DNA from: an uncultured Peptococcaceae bacterium
Lineage (GTDB): Bacteria > Bacillota > Peptococcia > Peptococcales > Peptococcaceae
Assembly: GCA_945949655.1 (NCBI GenBank)
Contig: CAMFFG010000008.1
Coordinates: 1-12,434, forward strand
Reading direction: 5' to 3'
Length of the DNA stretch: 12,434 nt
Part shown: piece by piece, positions 2,893 through 11,591 of the stretch
Layout: the number at the start of each line of letters is the position of its first letter
How positions within the stretch are numbered: position 1 is the first letter of the stretch
Program-made: the position numbers and the translations under genes
The notes under the pieces: generated by a model
What the model was told of the DNA's origin: nothing
What the model saw: only the letters and a program-made list of their open reading frames with translations
Database searches by the model: none

Positions 2893-3132
2893 ATGCCATT
2901 GTATCTGGATGAAAGCCTTGTCAACGAGACCTATCAGGTCGTTGATGTATCCGGCCTGGAATTGCCGGTGGAGCGACGGCTGGAAGCATTGGGCCTGACA
3001 GAGGGGACAAATATCACCGTATTAAATCGAAAAAAACGGGGCGCCATCATTGTAAAAGTGAGAGGCACCCGTTTTGCAATAGGACAGCATATCGCTGCCG
3101 GAATCAGGATCAAGAAGGTGGCGGTAACATGA
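2893..3132 (+). CDS. feoA: FeoA, ferrous-iron transport accessory protein, copy 1
   Basis: FeoA is a small cytosolic SH3-like beta-barrel protein that works with FeoB in Fe2+ uptake, probably by binding it at the membrane. This copy has 79 residues, typical for the family. The features seen are the RRLEALGLTEGT segment (about 28-39), the charged turn NRKKRGAIIVKVRGTRFAIG (45-64) and the closing strand with IAAGI. The ATG at 2893 follows GGGGAGG (2884-2890) closely. Its stop codon overlaps the feoB1 start by ATGA, so the two are translationally coupled. It is the first gene of cassette 1, behind a strong promoter at 2818-2846. Confidence 0.95.
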   Translation: MPLYLDESLVNETYQVVDVSGLELPVERRLEALGLTEGTNITVLNRKKRGAIIVKVRGTRFAIGQHIAAGIRIKKVAVT

Positions 3133-5183
3133 AAGATACGGTTCGGATCGGATTTATTGGAAATCCCAATTGCGGGAAGACAACATTATTTAATGCTTAC
3201 ACCGGGGCCAAACTGAAGGTGGCCAACTGGCCCGGCGTAACGGTAGAGAAAAAAGAAGGCTCTATGCAGTATCACGGGCATACCTTTCAGCTGGTGGACC
3301 TGCCCGGTATCTACAGTCTGACTTCTTATACCATGGAGGAAAAGGTATCCCGGGAATTTATTCTCAGCGACGATGTGGATGTGATCGTTGACATCGCCGA
3401 CGCATCTGCTCTGGAGCGCAATCTGTATCTGACGCTGCAGCTGATCGAGCTGGGTAAGCCGGTGGTGCTGGCGCTGAACATGATGGATATTGTGGAAGAG
3501 CGGGGCATGGAGATCGATATGCACCGTCTGCCGGAGATGCTGGGGATTCCGGTGGTACCGGTATCGGCGCGGAAAAAACGGGGCCTGGATGTTCTGATGC
3601 ATGCGGTGGCCCACCATGCCGATCAGGCCGAACCAGTGCTGCTGATCCATGACCATGAGGAGCTGGAGGAAGCCAGCCAGCACCAGCATGATCATCATGC
3701 CGAGTATGCCATGGTGTACAGTGACCTGATCGAGGATAAGATCGACGCGGTCACCGATGTGTTAAAGCAGCGGTATCCGGAGATGAAAAATTATCGCTGG
3801 CATGCGTTAAAGCTGCTGGAACAGGATCCGGACATTATGGCCCGTTATCCGGTGGATCTGCCGCAAGTGCTGGATCGCAGCTATGAAAAAGATATTATTA
3901 ACGAAAAATATGACTTTATCGAAGAGATCATCAGCGAAGTGCTGATGAATAAGACGCAGAAAGCGGAGCGAACCGACCGTATCGATACGCTGCTGACTCA
4001 TCCTTTCTGGGGTGTACCGGTTTTTCTGGGTATTATGGCTCTGGTATTTGCGCTCACCTTTACCATCGGTGATGCCATTAAGGGTGTCCTGGTGGAGCCG
4101 GCCATTGAATGGTGTTCCCAGGGAATTCTGAATTGTCTGACCTATGTTCAGGTGAATGAGATCCTGGTATCACTGATCATTGACGGGATCGTGGCCGGTG
4201 TGGGGACTATTTTATCCTTTCTGCCCAATATCTTTATTCTGTTTCTTGCGCTGGCCTTTCTGGAGGACAGCGGCTATATGGCCCGTGTGGCCTATGTGAT
4301 GGATGGCATTATGGGGCGGCTGGGGTTATCGGGCAGAGCTTTTATTCCTATGCTGCTGGGCTTTGGCTGTACGGTGCCGGCGGTGATGGCCTCCCGGGCA
4401 CTGGAAGATCCGCGGGATCGGCGCAAGACCATTCTGATCACACCGTTTATGTCCTGTAGTGCCCGTCTGCCTATCTATGTGGTGTTTTCCCAGATGTTTT
4501 TTGGCAGACATGCAATGCTGGCGGCCTACTCCATGTATCTTCTGGGCATTGTGGTAGCACTGGTGACAGCCTTTCTCCTGAAACTGCTGGACCAGAAAGA
4601 AAGCAGGAATAATCTGCTGATTGAGTTGCCCGAATACAAAACCCCCAATGCTTATAGCATTGCAATCTATGTATGGGAAAAGGTAAAGGATTATTTAACC
4701 AGGGCCGGCACTGTTATTTTTGTTGCATCTATTATTATGTGGTTGCTGCTGAATTGCGGACAGCATGGATTGGCTGACGATATGGGCCAGAGCTTTGGTG
4801 CAATTCTGGGCAAGGTACTGGTACCAGTGTTTGCTCCGGTAGGCTTGGGATACTGGCAGATTGTAGTGGCGCTGATTTCTGGGCTGGCAGCCAAAGAAGT
4901 TGTCGTGTCCAGCTGCGGCGTTTTGTTCGGCATCAATAACTTAAACTCCGATGCCGGTATGGGCGATATGGTGACCATGCTGGCTGCCATGGGCTTTGGC
5001 GCTGTTAACGCTTATGCCCTGATGACATTCTGTCTGCTGTATACGCCTTGTGTAGCAACACTGGCAACTATACGGCGAGAGTCGGGCAGCTGGGTGTGGA
5101 CCGGGCAGGCCGTTGTATTTCAGCTGGCTGTGGCCTGGCTGGTAACTTTTGTAGTGTATCATATTGGAATGCTGTTTGCGTAA
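3129..5183 (+). CDS. feoB: FeoB, Fe2+ transporter with N-terminal GTPase domain, copy 1
   Basis: FeoB is the inner-membrane ferrous-iron transporter. This 684-residue copy looks fully functional. Residues 1-165 are the G domain: P-loop GNPNCGKTT (11-19), switch I NWPGVTVE (33-40), DLPG (57-60), NMMD (117-120) and VSAR (145-148). Residues about 170-280 are the helical GDI-like region, here preceded by a histidine-rich stretch (HDHEE at 174-178, HQHDHH at 185-190). From about 288 the protein is membrane-embedded, with two Gate repeats. Conserved marks are GFGCTVPAVM (411-420), MSCSARLP (441-448), TRAGT (524-528), AAKEVVVSSCG (587-597) and LLYTPC (636-641), which carry the cysteines associated with metal passage. 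It is coupled to feoA1 by ATGA and followed by a small cysteine-rich protein gene, the usual Bacillota arrangement. Confidence 0.97.
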   Translation: MKDTVRIGFIGNPNCGKTTLFNAYTGAKLKVANWPGVTVEKKEGSMQYHGHTFQLVDLPGIYSLTSYTMEEKVSREFILSDDVDVIVDIADASALERNLYLTLQLIELGKPVVLALNMMDIVEERGMEIDMHRLPEMLGIPVVPVSARKKRGLDVLMHAVAHHADQAEPVLLIHDHEELEEASQHQHDHHAEYAMVYSDLIEDKIDAVTDVLKQRYPEMKNYRWHALKLLEQDPDIMARYPVDLPQVLDRSYEKDIINEKYDFIEEIISEVLMNKTQKAERTDRIDTLLTHPFWGVPVFLGIMALVFALTFTIGDAIKGVLVEPAIEWCSQGILNCLTYVQVNEILVSLIIDGIVAGVGTILSFLPNIFILFLALAFLEDSGYMARVAYVMDGIMGRLGLSGRAFIPMLLGFGCTVPAVMASRALEDPRDRRKTILITPFMSCSARLPIYVVFSQMFFGRHAMLAAYSMYLLGIVVALVTAFLLKLLDQKESRNNLLIELPEYKTPNAYSIAIYVWEKVKDYLTRAGTVIFVASIIMWLLLNCGQHGLADDMGQSFGAILGKVLVPVFAPVGLGYWQIVVALISGLAAKEVVVSSCGVLFGINNLNSDAGMGDMVTMLAAMGFGAVNAYALMTFCLLYTPCVATLATIRRESGSWVWTGQAVVFQLAVAWLVTFVVYHIGMLFA

Positions 5184-5212
5184 ATGTTTGTTTGAGAAAG
5201 AGGTGTATGGTT

Positions 5213-5362
5213 ATGCTGGCAACGATTGTTATTGGCGTAGCGATTGTAGCTTATGCCGGCTGGGTCAGCTACAGAAAATATAAGCAGTATAAAGCAGGAC
5301 AGTTCTGTAGCTGTGGCTGTAGTGGATGTTCCAGCAAAAGCAGTTGTGGAAAAAAAGAATAG
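5213..5362 (+). CDS. FeoB-associated cysteine-rich membrane protein
   Basis: This 49-residue protein matches the small FeoB-associated Cys-rich proteins often encoded directly after feoB in Bacillota. It has one membrane helix (about residues 3-19, ATIVIGVAIVAYAGWVS), a basic juxtamembrane part (YRKYKQYK) and a C-terminal tail CSCGCSGCSSKSSC with five cysteines, likely binding iron or another metal on the cytosolic side. The ribosome site AGAGGTG (5199-5205) has good spacing to the ATG at 5213; the in-frame ATG at 5207 is too close. It begins 29 bases after feoB1 and is co-transcribed. Its exact role in Feo uptake is not known; a small partner comparable to FeoC is one idea. The second Feo cassette lacks an intact copy. 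Confidence 0.88.
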   Translation: MLATIVIGVAIVAYAGWVSYRKYKQYKAGQFCSCGCSGCSSKSSCGKKE

Positions 5363-5368
5363 ACGGAT

Positions 5369-5413
5369 AGCAGAAAGCCTCGCTGATTTCTATTACCAGC
5401 GAGGCTTTCTGCT
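5369..5413 (+). terminator. Long perfect hairpin at the end of Feo cassette 1
   Basis: A 17-bp perfect stem, AGCAGAAAGCCTCGCTG (5369-5385) with its complement (5397-5413), encloses an 11-base loop. It lies just after the cysteine-rich gene. It lacks a T-tract on the right (GCCTTGG follows), so it may stop transcription weakly, or protect the 3' end of the message and let some read-through reach cassette 2. Confidence 0.6.
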
Positions 5414-5481
5414 GCCTTGGAGAATATTTTCAGGCAAAGTTTTTCTTATGGTGTTCTGGACAGGTGCAGATTTGATATATA

Positions 5482-5510
5482 TTGAAAAGATACGGCAATG
5501 GTGCTACAAT
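5482..5510 (+). promoter_or_regulatory. Promoter of the feoA2-feoB2 operon
   Basis: TTGAAA (5482-5487) and TACAAT (5505-5510) are 17 bases apart with a TGC extension before the -10, the same architecture as the feoA1 promoter. The inverse of the 11-mer CAATATATATC (5474-5484) overlaps the -35, so a regulator binding it would block or alter polymerase access. Confidence 0.7.
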
Positions 5511-5557: not shown

Positions 5558-5791
5558 ATGAAGTTGAATGATGGTGCAGTTGATCATACCTATCAGGTCG
5601 TAAAAGTAATAAATTTGGACCTTCCGGTGGAACGGCGACTAGAGGCGCTGGGGCTGACAGAAGGAACGGAGATAACGATATTAAATAAGAAAAAGCACGG
5701 TGCTATTATTGTAAAAGTGCGGGGAACACGTTTTGCCATAGGACAGAATATTGCCGCAGGGATTTGGGTTGAGGAGGCGCCCGTATCATGA
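5558..5791 (+). CDS. feoA: FeoA, ferrous-iron transport accessory protein, copy 2
   Basis: This 77-residue SH3-like FeoA closely resembles copy 1: VERRLEALGLTEGT (24-37) and GAIIVKVRGTRFAIGQ (48-63) are identical blocks, and the ends differ. The N-terminus (MKLNDGAVDHTYQ) and the C-terminus (WVEEAPVS in place of RIKKVAVT) change the charge from basic to acidic, which could alter which FeoB it prefers. The ATG at 5558 lies 8 bases after AGGAGG (5544-5549); the frame is open further upstream (to a codon at 5498), but that has no ribosome site and overlaps the promoter. Its stop overlaps the feoB2 start by ATGA. Confidence 0.95.
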   Translation: MKLNDGAVDHTYQVVKVINLDLPVERRLEALGLTEGTEITILNKKKHGAIIVKVRGTRFAIGQNIAAGIWVEEAPVS

Positions 5792-7842
5792 AAGATACGG
5801 TTTATATTGGTTTGATTGGGAACCCCAGTTGTGGGAAAACAACATTGTGCAATGCCTATACAGGTGGGAACAGAAAAGAGGCCGATTGGCTGGATAAAAC
5901 AGTAGAAAAAACAGAAAGTATCGTTTCCTATCATGGACATACCTTTAAACTGGTAGATCTGCCTGGCGTATATAGTCTGACAGCCTATACGGCTGAGGAA
6001 CTGATTTCTCGGAATTATATTCTCAGTGATGAACTGGATGTTATCGTCAACGTGGTAGATGCCTCGGCTCTGGAACGGAATCTGTATTTGACATTACAGC
6101 TGATCGAATTGGGCAAGCCGGTGGTAGTGGCGTTGAACATGATGGATATGGTGGAGGAACGGGGCATGGAGATCGACCTGCACCGTTTGCCAGAAATGCT
6201 GGGGGTGCCGGTAGTGCCCGTGTCAGCACGGAAAAGACGAGGACTGGATGTTCTACTGCATGCGGTGGCCCATCATATTGATCAATTGGAGCCAGTGGTA
6301 CTGGTTCATGATCATGAGGAACAGGAAGAGAATAGTCAGCACATGCATGACCACCATGCCGAGTATGCCATGGTGTACAGTGATGCAATTGAAGATAAAA
6401 TTGACGTTGTTACAGATATACTGAGACAGTGTTATCCGGAGATGAAAAATTATCGTTGGCATGCACTGAAACTGCTGGAGCAGGATCTGGATATTACAGC
6501 CCGTTATCCGGTAGATTTGTCGCAGGTGCTAGACTGCAGCTATGAGAAAGATATCATCAATGAAAAATATGATTTTATTGAAGAGATCATAGGGGAAGTA
6601 TTGATGAACAAGGAAGAAAAGGCGGAGCGTACCGATAAGGTGGATGCGGTCTTAACCCACCCGATATGGGGGCTTCCTATTTTTCTCGGTATGATGGCTT
6701 TAATTTTTGTTGTGACATTTACAGTAGGCGACTGGCTGAAAGTTGTATTTATGGAACCGGTGATCGAGGGCTGTTCTGCAGGGATTTTACGTTGTCTGTT
6801 ATATCTGCATGTAAATGAAATTATGATTTCTCTAGTTGTCGATGGGATCGTAGCTGGTGTTGGAACTGTTCTTTCCTTCTTACCCAATATCTGTATCCTG
6901 TTTTTAGCACTGGCTCTTTTGGAGGACAGTGGCTACATGGCCCGGGTGGCTTATGTGATGGATGATATCATGGGCAAGCTGGGCCTACCGGGCCGTGCTT
7001 TTATCCCTATGCTGCTGGGTTTTGGCTGTACGGTGCCAGCCGTTATGGCAGCGCGATCGCTGGAGCATGTGCGGGATCGGCGCAAGACTATTCTGATTAC
7101 ACCCTTTATGTCCTGCAGTGCCCGTCTGCCCATCTATGTGATATTTTCACAGATGTTTTTTGCAAAATATGCAGCAGTTGTGGCTTTTTCCATGTATGTT
7201 CTGGGGATTGCGGTTGCGCTGTTGACAGCATTCGTGTTGAAATTTTTTGATGGCAAAGAGCAGAAACAGCGGGCATTATTAATTGAACTGCCCGAATATA
7301 AAACGCCCAATCTGCACAGTATTCTGATTTATGTATGGGAAAAGATGAAAGAATATTTTACCAGGGTGCCGATCATTTTTGTAGCATCGTTAATTATGTG
7401 GGTGCTGTTAAACTGCGGCCCCGGCGGACTGGCCGCCGACATGACGCAGAGCTTTGGCGCCATGGCCGGCAAAGTGCTGACCCCAGTGTTTGTGCCCATT
7501 GGCCTTGGCTATTGGCAGATCGTAGTAGCTTTGATCTCCGGCATTGCTGGCAAAGAAGTGGTGGTATCCAGCTGCGGGATCCTCTTTGGCATTAACAACA
7601 TCAATTCGCAGGCAGGCATGGAGCAGATGCTGGCCACACTGTCCACCGTTGGTTTTGGAGCGGTAAACGCCTATGCGCTGATGACGTTCTGCCTGCTGTA
7701 TACGCCCTGTGCTGCTACATTGGCGACCATTCGGAGAGCCTTTGGCAGCTGGAAATGGACAGGCCAGGCAGTCCTGTTTCAGCTGGCAGTAGCATGGCTT
7801 GTGTCCTTTGTGGTATATCACATTGGGCTGCTGTTTGTGTGA
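5788..7842 (+). CDS. feoB: FeoB paralogue with altered P-loop and switch I, copy 2
   Basis: This is a full-length, 684-residue FeoB with the same domain order as copy 1, including the histidine-rich stretch (HDHEE 174-178, HMHDHH 185-190) and the cysteine motifs GFGCTVPAVM (411-420), MSCSARLP (441-448) and LLYTPC (636-641). The G domain is altered. The P-loop reads GNPSCGKTT, so Asn14, the counterpart of a residue important for GTP hydrolysis in studied FeoB G domains, is Ser. Switch I reads DWLDKTVE instead of NWPGVTVE, keeping the Mg-binding Thr38 but losing Pro-Gly-Val. Phe21 is Cys. In the membrane part, TRAGT becomes TRVP, one residue shorter; an extra residue near 494 restores the length. 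DLPG, NMMD and VSAR are intact. It is probably still expressed, given the open frame and good promoter, but with changed GTPase behaviour. Confidence 0.95.
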   Translation: MKDTVYIGLIGNPSCGKTTLCNAYTGGNRKEADWLDKTVEKTESIVSYHGHTFKLVDLPGVYSLTAYTAEELISRNYILSDELDVIVNVVDASALERNLYLTLQLIELGKPVVVALNMMDMVEERGMEIDLHRLPEMLGVPVVPVSARKRRGLDVLLHAVAHHIDQLEPVVLVHDHEEQEENSQHMHDHHAEYAMVYSDAIEDKIDVVTDILRQCYPEMKNYRWHALKLLEQDLDITARYPVDLSQVLDCSYEKDIINEKYDFIEEIIGEVLMNKEEKAERTDKVDAVLTHPIWGLPIFLGMMALIFVVTFTVGDWLKVVFMEPVIEGCSAGILRCLLYLHVNEIMISLVVDGIVAGVGTVLSFLPNICILFLALALLEDSGYMARVAYVMDDIMGKLGLPGRAFIPMLLGFGCTVPAVMAARSLEHVRDRRKTILITPFMSCSARLPIYVIFSQMFFAKYAAVVAFSMYVLGIAVALLTAFVLKFFDGKEQKQRALLIELPEYKTPNLHSILIYVWEKMKEYFTRVPIIFVASLIMWVLLNCGPGGLAADMTQSFGAMAGKVLTPVFVPIGLGYWQIVVALISGIAGKEVVVSSCGILFGINNINSQAGMEQMLATLSTVGFGAVNAYALMTFCLLYTPCAATLATIRRAFGSWKWTGQAVLFQLAVAWLVSFVVYHIGLLFV

Positions 7843-7844
7843 AC

Positions 7845-7905
7845 AGAGGTGCAGACTTAGTCTGTCGTGACTGTGCTGGGTGTTTTAAAAATAAAAACAA
7901 AATAG
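7845..7905 (+). pseudogene. Possible remnant of a second FeoB-associated cysteine-rich gene
   Basis: Just after feoB2 the ribosome site AGAGGTG (7845-7851) matches the one before the intact small gene of cassette 1 (5199-5205). No matching start follows. Instead, within 10 bases, a frame reading VCRDCAGCFKNKNK (from 7860) resembles the cysteine tail of the intact protein (FCSCGCSGCSSK). At base level TCTGT...CTGT..TGG.TGTT lines up in both. The membrane-helix part appears deleted. The match is short, so chance is possible. Confidence 0.35.
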
Positions 7906-7917
7906 TTTCGTTCCAAG

Positions 7918-7955
7918 AAAGTGGATTGCAGATTCTGCAGTTCACTTTTTATTTA
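7918..7955 (+). terminator. Rho-independent terminator after feoB2
   Basis: AAAGTGGATTGCAG (7918-7931) pairs with CTGCAGTTCACTTT (7935-7948) over 14 bp with two G-U pairs and a 3-base loop, followed by T-rich TTTATTTATT. This is a convincing intrinsic terminator. It marks the end of the Feo block and separates it from the permease operon. Confidence 0.8.
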
Positions 7956-8030: not shown

Positions 8031-8154
8031 AAAGACAATCTGAATGACTTCCATTCGCGCGAAGAAGCCTTTCGTAAAGAGTTATTTTTCAAATAATCTA
8101 TAGCGGTTTTATGTGAAAACTGACGAAAATGTTATTTTGAAAGGAATGAAATCT

Positions 8155-9534
8155 ATGACGAATGCAACAAAAATAAAGTGGATCGCCGCAATTTTAATGC
8201 CAATCTGCATTTATTTGATTCCAGTAAATGATATATTTACATTTGAAATACGAGCTTTCCTGGTAGCGACTGTGTTTGTGCTTTCCCTGGCGGCATTTGA
8301 ACTGTTGCCTAACTTGTTAGTCGGGTTACTGTTACCCGTTATGTATGTGATTTTAGGGGCAGTTCCGGTTTCTGGCGCTTTGGGCATCTGGTCCGGCAGT
8401 TTTATGATTTTTATGGTTATTGGTGGTATGATTTTTGCAAATGCTTTAGATGAAAGCGGATTGCTGCGTCGAATTGTACTGTGGGTCGGTACAAAATGCA
8501 AGGGAAGTTTTTTGAAATTACTGATGGCGCTGATGGTAGCAGGTTTGCTTGTAATGGCAATCTCTTTTGCAGGGGCCTGGATGATCACCCTGGTGTTATG
8601 TTACGGCGTAGTAAAAGCCTTACATCTGGAAAATACAAAAGAAGGCATTCTGATTATGATCGTCAGCCAGATTGTATCTACCGCATCGCTGAACTTTATT
8701 TATAATCCTACTGCCATTGCGCTATGGGGTGGCGGTGCACAAATGGCTGATCCTACCTTTGAAATGAAATGGTGGATGCAATATGTATATGATGCACCGT
8801 TAATCGTGATACAGTTTATTATCGTGTTTATTTTCTATAAACTGTATAAACCGGAAAAACAGCTGAAAGGCGGCCAGGAATATTTTGAAACGGAATATGC
8901 AAAGTTAGGGTCTGTGACTATCAAGGAAAAGAAAGCAGTTGTATTAACAATTGTGCTGTTCCTGTATATTTTCACACAGCCGATTCATAAATTGGACATG
9001 AATTATGCGTTTATTTTAATTCCGATGCTGTTCTTTTTGCCAGGGATTGATGTGGCAACAAAGCAAAAATCGCTGGACACAGTAAATTTAGGCTTTATCG
9101 TATTTATCGCTTCCTGTATGGGAATCGGTACAGTTGGGGCAGCGGTAGGTATTGGTCCGGCTATCAGTACTTATGTAGCGCCTATGCTGTCCGGCTGTCC
9201 GAAACCGGTATTCCTGTTCCTGTGTATTGTTTTTGGTATCATTATGAATATTCTGATGACACCATCTGCCATGCAGGGCATGTTTCCCGGTCCATTGGCG
9301 GCGCTGGGGCAAGGTATTGGCATCGCGAGCCCGTTGATTCCGTTCATGGCTATGTTTTTTGCCAATGACATGGTGTTCTTCCCGTACGAAAATGCTTATC
9401 TGCTGGTAATGTTCGGTTTCGGTGTGATGAGTATGAAAGAATTTATGAAGTACAATGTCATTAAAATGGGTATCACGCTGGTGCTGTTCTGGGTGCTGGT
9501 ATTGCCATGGTGGTATCTGCTGGGCTTGATTTAA
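8155..9534 (+). CDS. SLC13/DASS-like permease (predicted anion transporter)
   Basis: This 459-residue integral membrane protein has roughly 11-12 hydrophobic segments and the two-repeat pattern of the divalent-anion:Na+ symporter (SLC13/ArsB-like) superfamily, whose members import dicarboxylates, citrate or sulfate. Repeat 1 covers about residues 10-230 and repeat 2 about 260-459, joined by a charged cytosolic loop (about 231-260). The substrate hairpins of classic members carry Ser-Asn-Thr. Here the matching places appear to be ISFAGAWM (136-143) and MTPSAMQG (368-375), so ligand and sodium coordination may differ. The start is the ATG at 8155, 8 bases after AAGGAA; upstream in-frame GTG 8113 and ATG 8146 lack a proper ribosome site. 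The amidohydrolase-fold gene follows by 51 bases with no terminator, so transport and metabolism of one compound is likely. Substrate unknown. Confidence 0.82.
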   Translation: MTNATKIKWIAAILMPICIYLIPVNDIFTFEIRAFLVATVFVLSLAAFELLPNLLVGLLLPVMYVILGAVPVSGALGIWSGSFMIFMVIGGMIFANALDESGLLRRIVLWVGTKCKGSFLKLLMALMVAGLLVMAISFAGAWMITLVLCYGVVKALHLENTKEGILIMIVSQIVSTASLNFIYNPTAIALWGGGAQMADPTFEMKWWMQYVYDAPLIVIQFIIVFIFYKLYKPEKQLKGGQEYFETEYAKLGSVTIKEKKAVVLTIVLFLYIFTQPIHKLDMNYAFILIPMLFFLPGIDVATKQKSLDTVNLGFIVFIASCMGIGTVGAAVGIGPAISTYVAPMLSGCPKPVFLFLCIVFGIIMNILMTPSAMQGMFPGPLAALGQGIGIASPLIPFMAMFFANDMVFFPYENAYLLVMFGFGVMSMKEFMKYNVIKMGITLVLFWVLVLPWWYLLGLI

Positions 9535-9585
9535 TCAAATAATCAGACCATGTTTTACAGAAAGTTACAAAAGGAGTTGCGAAAC

Positions 9586-10431
9586 ATGAAAATAATTGAT
9601 ATGCGTCTGCGTCCGCCCTTTCAGCCTTATCTGGACAAAGACGGTATGTACGATATGAATAGTGATGTTTTGTTTGGACCGAATCATTTTCCTATGCGCT
9701 TTGGCATGAAAACAGCCCAGTCTGTGAAAGAGGCTTCTATGGACAGACTGTTTGAGGAAATGGACCGGGCCGGTGAAATCACCGGTGTAGTATCGATCCG
9801 CAAAAGCCCCCGTGGTTATGAAAATGACGCGCTGGTGGATCTGCTGGCCCAGTACCCGGAACGATTCATCGGTTCCTGCGGAATTGCGCCGGATGGCAGC
9901 GCGGAAACCATTGCTGTACTGCAGAACTATGTATTAGATGGTCCTTGCATCACAGCTTTTATGGAACCGGGCTTTCATGGAGTGATGATTGATGATGAAA
10001 AAATCTTTCCTACCTATGAATTCTGTGAAAAAAATCAGATTCCGCTGATGATATCCTTTGGCGGTTTTCACGGACCTACCGCTGAGTATTGCAATGCAGT
10101 ACATGCCGATCATGTGGCCAGTACGTTTCCAAAGCTGAAAATGGTATTGTGTCATGGCGGATGGCCGTGGGTAGAAGCGGCTGTACATCTGGCTTTTAAG
10201 GCACCTAATGTTTATTTGTCGCCCGATATCTATGCACTACATGCGCCAGGAGGCAAAGACTACATTGAGGCAGCCAATTACATGATTCCTAATAAATTTC
10301 TGTATGGTTCTGCATATCCTTGTGTAGACGTGGAAGGTTCGGTTGCATATTATCTGGATCATCTTCGGCCAGAAGTTGTGGAAGATGTTATGTATCGTAA
10401 TGCTGCCAGATTTTTGGGATTGGAAAAATAA
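9586..10431 (+). CDS. Amidohydrolase_2-fold protein lacking canonical metal ligands
   Basis: This 281-residue protein matches the TIM-barrel amidohydrolase-2 family, which includes decarboxylases and lactonases acting on small carboxylates and aromatics. Strand 1 reads IDMRLRPP (4-11) where metal-dependent members have Asp-x-His-x-His. The strand-5 His position is Ser157 (PLMISFGG), and the C-terminal GSDYP motif is GSAYP (241-245), so the catalytic Asp is Ala. His190 in VLCHGGWPW (187-195) is kept. Other family traits are present: FIGSCGIAPD, GFHGVMIDD and the end RNAARFLGL. The ATG at 9586 has AAGGAG 9 bases upstream; an in-frame ATG at 9550 has no ribosome site. It is the second gene of the permease operon. 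It may be a metal-independent enzyme, a ligand-binding protein, or use a different catalytic set (Arg7, Arg9, His162). No reaction can be named. Confidence 0.85.
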   Translation: MKIIDMRLRPPFQPYLDKDGMYDMNSDVLFGPNHFPMRFGMKTAQSVKEASMDRLFEEMDRAGEITGVVSIRKSPRGYENDALVDLLAQYPERFIGSCGIAPDGSAETIAVLQNYVLDGPCITAFMEPGFHGVMIDDEKIFPTYEFCEKNQIPLMISFGGFHGPTAEYCNAVHADHVASTFPKLKMVLCHGGWPWVEAAVHLAFKAPNVYLSPDIYALHAPGGKDYIEAANYMIPNKFLYGSAYPCVDVEGSVAYYLDHLRPEVVEDVMYRNAARFLGLEK

Positions 10432-10444
10432 AAATTTGTGAAAT

Positions 10445-10480
10445 AATCCTGCTGTTTTCTCTGGGAGACAGCAGGATTTT
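10445..10480. terminator. Bidirectional terminator between the hydrolase and lysR genes
   Basis: AATCCTGCTGT (10445-10455) pairs with ACAGCAGGATT (10468-10478), with a small inner CTC/GAG stem, and TTTT follows. On the other strand the hairpin is followed by T-rich sequence too. It lies between two convergent genes, 13 bases after one and 4 bases from the other. Confidence 0.8.
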
Positions 10481-10484
10481 AAGC

Positions 10485-11432
10485 TTATAGTTTTTCAGCC
10501 AGAGCCATATAATGATCATGGAGCAGATTGGCCACAATGCTCTCTTCAACAGACGGTTCTGCCATCATCAGAATGAAATATGTCATAGGTAAGTGGAAAT
10601 CGGTAACATGTAACGGCAATACACTGTTATTTTTCCTGTATGGTTCCTGGGAGGAAATGATGTTACCTGTTAAACTTAAAGCCTTGTTGGCCACAGTCAG
10701 ATCCATAATGGTGTAACGATTGCTGAGATAAATGACCTTGCGAAACAGACTGTCATAGTTGATGAGACCAGCTGCGATAAATTGTGGCAATGTAGCTGTT
10801 TCGATTGTTTGAGAATAACTGGCTAATGTGCAGTTTTTCAGATCGGCAGTAGTGAGCTTCTGGTTCACGAGAGGACTGTCACAGCTGGCGAAAAACTGGT
10901 AGCAGTCATCAAACAACGGAATTACCTGCAGACGATTTGTTCTGGCAAATTCATAAATTTCATTTTTTGTCTGATCGTTATAGTGGCTGATGCAAATGGT
11001 TTTCGGGTATGTGGTAACTTCATTTAAGACATCCTGCAATTGCCGTTCAAATAATGTCAGCTGAATGCGAGGATAGTTATGGGCAATCTCGCAAAACACG
11101 TCGTTTATGGTATTGTTGCAGATCATCGGCAGAGCGGCAATACGGATCTGGCTGATTGTTTCTGTTGCTGCATAGGCAATATCCTGCCATTTGCGGGTAC
11201 AGTCAGAATATAGCTGTAAAAGAGAGATACAATCCTTATACACAATCATGCCTTCTTTGGTTGGTGTGATACCATGTTTGGAGCGCTTCAGTAGCGGGAA
11301 GCCCAGCTCTTTCTCTAATGCGGCAATGGCACGACTCAAAGCAGGCTGCGCTACAAATAATGTTTTGGAAGCCTGATTGATAGAGCGGGCGTTGACAATT
11401 TCCACAAAATATCGCATATCCTCTAAACGCAT
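10485..11432 (-). CDS. LysR-type transcriptional regulator
   Basis: This 315-residue protein is a typical LysR-type regulator. Residues about 1-60 hold the winged helix-turn-helix, with MRLEDMRYFVEIVNARSINQ, then ASKTLFVAQPALSRAIAALE as the recognition helix region and LKRSKHGITPTKEG as the wing. A linker helix follows, then the periplasmic-binding-like effector domain (about 90-305). The chosen start is the ATG at 11432, after GGGGGTG about 6 bases upstream; the frame is open for about 50 more codons, but those would cover the promoter. It points toward the permease-hydrolase operon, convergent with it rather than divergent as is usual for this family. The likely job is control of that operon in response to its substrate, perhaps through the palindrome at 7987-8001. 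The effector is unknown. Confidence 0.93.
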   Translation of the reverse strand: MRLEDMRYFVEIVNARSINQASKTLFVAQPALSRAIAALEKELGFPLLKRSKHGITPTKEGMIVYKDCISLLQLYSDCTRKWQDIAYAATETISQIRIAALPMICNNTINDVFCEIAHNYPRIQLTLFERQLQDVLNEVTTYPKTICISHYNDQTKNEIYEFARTNRLQVIPLFDDCYQFFASCDSPLVNQKLTTADLKNCTLASYSQTIETATLPQFIAAGLINYDSLFRKVIYLSNRYTIMDLTVANKALSLTGNIISSQEPYRKNNSVLPLHVTDFHLPMTYFILMMAEPSVEESIVANLLHDHYMALAEKL

Positions 11433-11463
11433 AAATTTGCACCCCCACGGAACAGATACTATT

Positions 11464-11492
11464 ATTATAGCAGGACAATACTGCCTGGTCAC
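11464..11492 (-). promoter_or_regulatory. Promoter of the lysR gene
   Basis: On the minus strand GTGACC (11492-11487) and TATAAT (11469-11464) are 17 bases apart, with a TGC extension before the perfect -10. Transcription would start near 11457, about 25 bases before the start codon. An inverted repeat, CAGG-N9-CCTG (11471-11487), fills the spacer and could serve self-regulation, as is common for LysR genes; that part is weak. Confidence 0.65.
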
Positions 11493-11549
11493 GCATAAAT
11501 TTTGTACGGACAAACAATAAAGCAGGAGCGAAAGCCCAACAAGACGCAC

Positions 11550-11591
11550 AACGAAAAACCGTGTATCCTTTTTGGAAGAATACACGGTTTT
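11550..11591 (-). terminator. Terminator of the NAGPA-domain gene
   Basis: AAAACCGTGTAT (11555-11566) pairs with ATACACGGTTTT (11580-11591) over 12 bp. Read on the minus strand it is followed by a T-rich end (TTTTTCGTTG). It lies 14 bases past the stop codon of the leftward gene and upstream of the lysR promoter, so the two genes are transcribed separately. Confidence 0.8.

Follow-up and report, generated by a model that had tools for sequence, protein, structure and literature searches.

The window analysed here, a stretch of 12,434 nucleotides that makes up contig CAMFFG010000008.1 of an uncultured Peptococcaceae bacterium (genome 68% complete, 285 contigs), carries two tandem feoA-feoB pairs. 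The product of the second feoB gene, FeoB2, was found to have an altered P-loop and switch I in its guanine nucleotide-binding (G) domain. The evidence slightly favours the view that FeoB2 is an old, maintained FeoB paralogue in which the K+-activated GTPase switch has been given up and the membrane permease has been kept.

FeoB2 belongs to the FeoB family: its TIGR00437 profile match is above the cut-off (568.9 against 315.65 bits; the NCBIfam scan covered five of the proteins), feoA2 adjoins it, and the pore cysteines Cys414, Cys443 and Cys641 are present and unchanged. The Pfam domains are complete (FeoB_N, FeoB_Cyto, two Gate domains and FeoB_C; PF02421, PF17910, PF07670, PF07664). Its length is equal to that of FeoB1 within a few residues, with the same domains and the same feoA-feoB order, and FeoA2 and FeoA1 are identical in 54 of 79 aligned columns.

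The alignment of FeoB1 and FeoB2 gave 530 identical columns out of 685 (73.7% nucleotide identity), and the least alike block of 25 residues was residues 26-50 (0.48). FeoB2 reads GNPSCGKT...KEADWLDKTVEKTES, where FeoB1 reads GNPNCGKT...KVANWPGVTVEKKEG. Besides the replacement of Asn14 by Ser and of Pro35-Gly36-Val37 by Leu-Asp-Lys (codons 5890-5898), the stretch contains changes at F21C, A27, L29, V31E, N33, K42T and G44S. Lys17, Thr18, Thr38, DLPG, NMMD and the SA of G5 are kept. This agrees with the preliminary description of the window, which had reported GNPS and WLDK in place of GNPN and WPGV, an intact reading frame and retention of Thr38, Lys17, DLPG and NMMD; of the G5 motif that it also listed, the SA remains. 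Switch I of FeoB2 is ungapped and as long as that of FeoB1. A pair of frameshifts in switch I was rejected as an origin of the change, as Lys30, Ala32, Trp34 and Thr38 are in register and the length is unchanged. Compared with FeoB1 and the other FeoBs of the genus, FeoB2 is identical in G3, G4, the pore cysteines, the retained PxxP and N22; it differs in the lack of Asn14, in the change of Pro-Gly-Val to Leu-Asp-Lys, in V31E and, in the membrane domain, in RAGT to RV-P and A588G. AlphaFold2 (AF2) models of both proteins were made with the same alignment rows, minus P0013, the window's FeoB1 in the database. The mean predicted local distance difference test score (pLDDT) of residues 31-40 was 40 in FeoB2 and 67 in FeoB1, in models that are mediocre (pLDDT 75.5 and 74.4, predicted template modelling scores 0.57 and 0.63) and carry little weight.

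The altered form is not restricted to one protein. In a search of 5.8 billion proteins (best 120 of 7984 scored, with lower-ranking FeoB2-type proteins outside the view), the closest proteins were P0001 (91% identical, from a Peptococcaceae metagenome-assembled genome, whose cluster is listed as having 13 members) and P0002 (86%), and the remaining matches listed were at most 78% identical to FeoB2. P0001 reads GNPS...DWLDKT and P0002 reads GNPG...AWLDKT. In a tree that took 33 of the 120 proteins listed, FeoB2, P0001 and P0002 formed one clade (support 100/100, stem 0.30, tips 0.05-0.14), nested in a cluster (100/99) that includes its congeners G004, G005 and G007, and the clade survived the removal of alignment columns 12-47. 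The preliminary description had asked whether the variant occurs elsewhere as a monophyletic group; across three proteins, it does. A search with residues 8-60 proved insensitive, giving five candidates, of which P0001 was the only member recovered and P0002 was missed. WLDK is identical in all three members, whereas position 14 is Ser, Ser and Gly, so that the P-loop Asn of the K+-activated TEES GTPases is absent throughout. The second Asn, N22, is kept in the three proteins. Among the G-motif positions checked (G1 11-18, G2 Thr38, G3 57-60, G4 117-120, G5 144-147), 19 of 21 are unchanged across the clade, the exceptions being position 14 and a Val/Ile exchange at 145.

The P-loop Asn appears to be nearly universal among the readable FeoBs that resemble FeoB2, the group to which the following surveys refer, as they are not a family-wide census. 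It was present in 120 of the 122 listed database homologues that could be read (128 proteins, six without an N-terminus dropped), the exceptions being P0001 and P0002. The same residue was read in 29/29 other FeoB loci from a search of the phylum (398 genomes, 107 with a match at E ≤ 1e-40; 30 loci read, the window's own included); the query was the G domain of FeoB2, so variants would rank high. It was also found in all 21 readable loci of the contigs of relatives' genomes (22 found, one partial). No natural FeoB clade without the K+-binding Asn came up in the open-licence PMC sources consulted.

The likely consequence can be judged from other FeoBs. The preliminary description had called the matching Asn11 of Streptococcus thermophilus FeoB important for GTP hydrolysis; more exactly, this residue is reported to coordinate K+, and when it is mutated both the binding of K+ and the activation by K+ are lost (PMC3153494). 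According to the same source, the backbone NH groups of Gly33, Val34 and Thr35 touch the transition-state analogue, and the backbone of Thr35 and Gly56 aligns the water (PMC3153494). FeoB2 has Leu-Asp-Lys at the place of Gly33-Val34 and the residue before them, while the Trp and the Thr are kept; Thr38 and the Gly of DLPG (G3), whose backbone aligns the attacking water, are retained. Cation-dependent GTPases have a second Asn five residues beyond the G1 Lys; this Asn is described as shaping the K-loop (PMC3466195). Since the feature lost is the K+ site, hydrolysis would be expected to be basal and K+-insensitive, and not zero. FeoB2 probably still binds nucleotide, as its motifs indicate, and GTP binding with slow, K+-independent hydrolysis is the most likely behaviour, judged from the sequence and from published mutagenesis in another FeoB. 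The earlier proposal of a nucleotide-binding, slowly hydrolysing paralogue is supported in part, in that binding is probable (19/21 motif positions) and a catalytic feature was lost, with the refinement that this feature is the K+ site.

A FeoB of this kind would not be without precedent: GTP hydrolysis by Bacteroides fragilis NFeoAB is reported as very slow and without K+ stimulation (PMC8980893), and FeoB2 would resemble it in being a slow GTPase that is insensitive to K+ and works in the context of FeoA. However, GNPNCGKT is intact in NFeoAB, where the Asn is blocked in the view of the study's authors (PMC8980893), while in FeoB2 the Asn itself is gone and there is no fusion to FeoA. A slow K+-insensitive FeoB (PMC8980893) and duplicated Feo systems, one of them with a changed metal (PMC8749426), are therefore already known from the sources cited.

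The changes were also located along the protein. The comparison used the 329 columns that are conserved in 95% or more of the 42 other FeoB rows; 26 of these columns were changed in all three clade members, 11/31 in residues 12-47 and 15/298 elsewhere (Fisher odds ratio 10.4, p 2.6e-6, for a region that was chosen after the finding had been seen). The clustering within about 30 positions that the preliminary description had noted is confirmed, over a larger stretch than it gave, and its statement that the rest is conserved stands only in part, with 15 of the 26 changes outside residues 12-47, RAGT to RV-P and A588G among them. The proportion of nonsynonymous differences (pN) between FeoB1 and FeoB2 was 0.205 in residues 10-50, against 0.010 between FeoB1 and G007, and it was also high in residues 281-350 (0.223 against 0.199) and 451-550 (0.196 against 0.083). 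The synonymous proportion (pS) is saturated in residues 10-50 (0.80-0.87).

Within the FeoB2 clade, variable sites were counted and compared with 1664 FeoB1 triplets matched to the clade in total divergence. The 28-row genus set, which served for the counts at conserved columns, contains P0013 beside FeoB1; P0013 was dropped from the triplets and pairs, and outgroup loci and seven distant proteins were dropped from the genus sets. Residues 12-47 held 9 variable sites in the FeoB2 clade (triplet mean 1.6, maximum 5) and residues 52-160 held 16 (mean 4.5, maximum 16), whereas residues 161-280 were alike (37 against a mean of 36.9). Towards the C-terminus the relation was reversed, with 16 against a mean of 24.5 in residues 281-350, 7 against 14.9 in residues 451-520, 6 against 16.8 (minimum 8) in residues 521-600 and 14 against 21.3 in residues 601-684. 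Pairwise counts gave the same picture: FeoB2 pairs had 13, 22 and 20 differences in residues 12-160, where the maxima of matched FeoB1 pairs were 7, 13 and 13, and 9, 29 and 28 differences in residues 361-684, where the minima were 14, 30 and 31. With branch lengths fitted separately, the ratio of the G-domain rate to the membrane-domain rate (361-684) was 0.409 in the FeoB2 clade and 0.072 in FeoB1, i.e. 5.7 times higher (60 bootstraps, median 5.96, 5-95% 3.9-9.5). Relative to FeoB1 and the FeoBs of the genus, constraint has thus moved from the G domain to the rear part of the membrane domain, the G domain being freer and the membrane domain, except for residues 351-450, quieter.

Nine sites conserved in FeoB1 are changed in all three FeoB2 proteins in a non-uniform way (14, 27, 29, 33, 69, 72, 76, 82 and 309), and eight of them lie within residues 12-47 or 61-84, which hold 52 of 462 conserved columns; these bounds were set after the sites had been seen. 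It appears that the switch is relaxed and nucleotide binding is not, because the nucleotide-contact motifs do not drift except for Val/Ile at 145.

Some observations weigh against the reading that the K+-activated switch was given up and the permease kept. Residues 351-450 are not quieter in the FeoB2 clade (8 variable sites, FeoB1 mean 5.6, range 2-14). The triplets and pairs have members in common and hence are not independent, and there are only three FeoB2 sequences, with DNA for one of them and with dS towards FeoB1 saturated. Old gene conversion in residues 61-280 could inflate the apparent variation of the G domain, though it cannot explain the eight switch sites at which no FeoB2 has the FeoB1 residue. 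The membrane domain also changed on the stem branch of the clade (RAGT to RV-P, A588G and S401P, all clade-wide). Finally, dynamins carry Ser at the Asn position and are reported to use Na+ or K+ (PMC6310460), so the Ser alone is no proof of lost cation activation, and Lys37 might replace the cation.

The last point leads to the main rival explanation, which we regard as unlikely: Lys37, or a site at Ser14, replaces K+ in a dynamin-like manner. The identity of WLDK in 3/3 members is in line with it, and so are the reports that in K+-dependent nucleoside triphosphatases K+ sits where Arg or Lys fingers place a nitrogen (PMC6310460) and that a switch II Lys takes the K+ place in EngA GD2 (PMC3466195). 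However, the parallel with dynamins, which have Ser for the P-loop Asn (PMC6310460) as do two of the three clade members, has limits, since dynamins shorten the K-loop by one residue and FeoB2 does not, and P0002 has Gly14. Two distant FeoBs, L020 (G005 C10) and L026 (G007 C1), approximately 26-29% identical to FeoB1, read GNPNVGKS...GNWSGKT and have, like FeoB2, a Lys ahead of the G2 Thr; as both retain the P-loop Asn, this Lys is no obvious substitute. Moreover, nearby switch sites drift, and four invariant residues in three sequences are weak evidence of selection.

The changes of the membrane domain bear on a second alternative, a switch of FeoB2 to another metal such as Mn2+, with the changes of the G domain accompanying it. 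The conserved RAGT of a predicted membrane helix is replaced by RVP with one Gly deleted, and helix 508-542, continuous in the FeoB1 model, is broken at residue 526 in the FeoB2 model, in mediocre models that also differ in other small helix breaks. Position 588 is Ala in 122 of 128 proteins and Gly in two, with four unmatched by the pattern. RAGT to RV-P, A588G and S401P would allow for a change of gate or of metal. Together with F369C, which is also common to the clade, and with residues 451-684, more constrained than in FeoB1, they speak for a change of metal, and the duplicated Feo system of Porphyromonas gingivalis is reported as a demonstrated Mn2+ transporter (PMC8749426). That system resembles the present one in being a second, diverged Feo operon (PMC8749426); the common name FeoB2 implies no relation, and it is absent from the tree made here. 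On the other hand, Cys414, Cys443 and Cys641 are unchanged and the strongest cluster of changes is in the GTPase switch; we regard a change of metal as quite improbable. The suggestion of the preliminary description that FeoB2 binds something else likewise finds no support at the pore cysteines.

The ratio dN/dS of FeoB2 against five FeoB1s was 0.06-0.08; as dS is saturated (1.8-2.7), only 'far below 1' is a safe statement. An intact frame, low dN/dS, complete domains, a promoter-like site and a terminator-like hairpin argue that FeoB2 is not decaying. Decay had been proposed earlier for a variant unique to one strain with dN/dS near 1, whereas a clade of three proteins and a value far below 1 were found. 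The possibility that FeoB2 is a relaxed duplicate heading for loss, without useful function, is thus already disfavoured and is the least probable of those weighed here. It would agree with the relaxed constraint in the switch regions, with the fact that G001, G004 and G005 have just one pair at the syntenic locus, and with the one FeoB1-type copy in G007. It agrees poorly with the intact frame and domains, with three diverged proteins and with the stronger conservation of residues 361-684 relative to matched FeoB1 pairs.

When FeoB2 was used as query in seven other genomes of the genus, six gave FeoB1-type proteins at 73-76% and G003 gave only a FeoB at 40%. No match was found at E ≤ 1e-180 in five further genomes of the family, several of the genomes searched being incomplete. 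G004 and G005 have a single feoAB pair at the syntenic locus yvcK-whiA-orf-feoA-feoB, G001 has a single pair at the other flank (feoA-feoB-small protein-DASS-LysR) and G007 has one FeoB1-type copy. Because relatives have a single pair at the syntenic locus, the second pair is a lineage-restricted addition, which either predates the split of this species from G004/G005, in line with the approximately unbiased test given below, or moved laterally within the genus. A chimeric contig was rejected, as the yvcK and whiA side adjoins a single feoAB in G004/G005 and the DASS and LysR side does so in G001. A recent duplication of the window's own FeoB1 was rejected as well (dS 1.8; approximately unbiased test against a FeoB2 + FeoB1 clade, p 0.017, for a group named after the first tree had been seen). 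Against this rejection, residues 177, 259 and 363 are private to FeoB1 and all three FeoB2 proteins, and FeoB1 and the window's FeoB2 also share private residues 166, 218, 320 and 662. In residues 161-280, the linker/helical part, pN was 0.094 between FeoB1 and FeoB2 and 0.154 between FeoB1 and G007. The private shared residues and this low pN may reflect old gene conversion between FeoB1 and FeoB2.

Some further FeoB genes were seen in the relatives. G005 and G007 also hold FeoBs approximately 37% identical to FeoB1 (L018, L024), a further type. A FeoB1-type gene, L014 (G006 C120), runs into the contig edge and contains a single in-frame TAG close to its end, and in the feoB L063 (G001 C97) a scaffold gap, written as a run of N, makes the gene look split.

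If FeoB2 is a maintained paralogue without the K+-activated switch, it would bind GTP, hydrolyse it at a slow basal rate only, alike with K+ or Na+, and stay GTP-bound longer because of the slow hydrolysis. Its G domain would then signal by binding more than by turnover, and FeoA2 and FeoB2 would make up another unit of metal uptake next to the normal FeoA1-FeoB1, probably under expression signals of its own. Two steps are the least certain: that the long GTP state would mean a longer-open or differently timed transport cycle, and that Fe2+ is still the metal. A related alternative is that FeoB2 acts through FeoB1, by mixed trimers or competition for FeoA, its slow G domain tuning FeoB1. The tandem position, the reported trimeric state of FeoB (PMC4847171) and the kept PxxP, proposed as a dock for FeoA (PMC8980893), are compatible with it; however, FeoB2 comes with a feoA2, and possibly with expression signals, of its own, and we consider this very unlikely. 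A role as a regulator of FeoB1, one of the options in the preliminary description, has no direct support.

A step beyond the favoured paralogue reading, offered tentatively and itself doubtful, would be a natural uncoupling of transport from GTP hydrolysis. Here the G domain, its switch drifting, would be a GTP-holding plug or FeoA dock, and the membrane domain a GTP-bound metal channel that works independently of hydrolysis. FeoB has been proposed to be a GTP-gated channel (PMC4847171), and the role of GTP in it, as gate, motor or signal, is still argued in the sources consulted (PMC4847171, PMC8980893). If the uncoupling were true, FeoB2 would be a natural separation-of-function variant for the debate between GTP-gated channel and active transporter. 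The K+ site and the switch are where FeoB1 and FeoB2 diverge most; the two proteins have the same pore cysteines and are encoded in tandem, a ready-made comparison for whether K+-activated hydrolysis is needed for transport. The case also illustrates that a protein annotated plainly as FeoB can be without a defining catalytic feature of the family.

The features of the locus are collected in Table 1. The promoter-like site in front of feoA2 is weak by itself, with 12 such sites in the region and 9.6 expected; terminator-like sites numbered 9 (5.2 expected). Neither a single local alignment nor a scan for palindromes showed an operator common to the regions in front of feoA1 and feoA2.

Table 1. 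Features of the window, with positions counted from its first letter.
Feature	Position	Strand	Basis
feoA1	2893..3132	+	PF04023, 58.4 bits
feoB1, canonical GNPNCGKT / NWPGVT	3129..5183	+	open frame; P-loop and switch I read
Small FeoB-associated Cys-rich membrane protein	5207..5362	+	PF12669, 45 bits
Strong hairpin between feoB1 unit and feoA2, without T-run	5365..5416	+	-36.5 kcal/mol, z -8.0
Candidate promoter of feoA2-feoB2, TTGAAA-17-TACAAT, TG ahead of second hexamer	5482..5510	+	10/12 matches
feoA2, intact; last 4 bases overlap feoB2 start	5558..5791	+	PF04023, 64.5 bits
feoB2, diverged copy, P-loop and switch I altered	5788..7842	+	open frame, 684 aa, ATG
G1/P-loop GNPSCGKT, Asn14 to Ser (codon 5827-5829)	5818..5841	+	alignment with FeoB1
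Switch I / K-loop region, G26-T38, ending WLDKT (5887-5901) for WPGVT	5863..5901	+	alignment
Switch II neighbourhood, residues 61-82; sites 69, 72, 76, 82 unlike FeoB1 and varied within the FeoB2 clade	5968..6033	+	alignment
RVP (residues 526-528) for conserved RAGT, one Gly deleted, predicted membrane helix	7363..7371	+	alignment
Ala588 to Gly, AAKE to AGKE, beside conserved Lys-Glu	7549..7551	+	alignment
Intrinsic terminator-like hairpin 3' of feoB2	7916..7950	+	fold z -5.0

The hairpin between the feoB1 unit and feoA2 is terminator-like in position and may mark the end of an mRNA or be a repeat element. Right behind feoB2, one frame of positions 7843-7890 reads a short Cys-rich stretch, CRDCAGC, possibly the remnant of a FeoB-associated Cys-rich gene such as the one after feoB1. 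Further 3' (8113-11585) lie a DASS-type anion transporter, an amidohydrolase (PF04909) and, read divergently, a LysR regulator.

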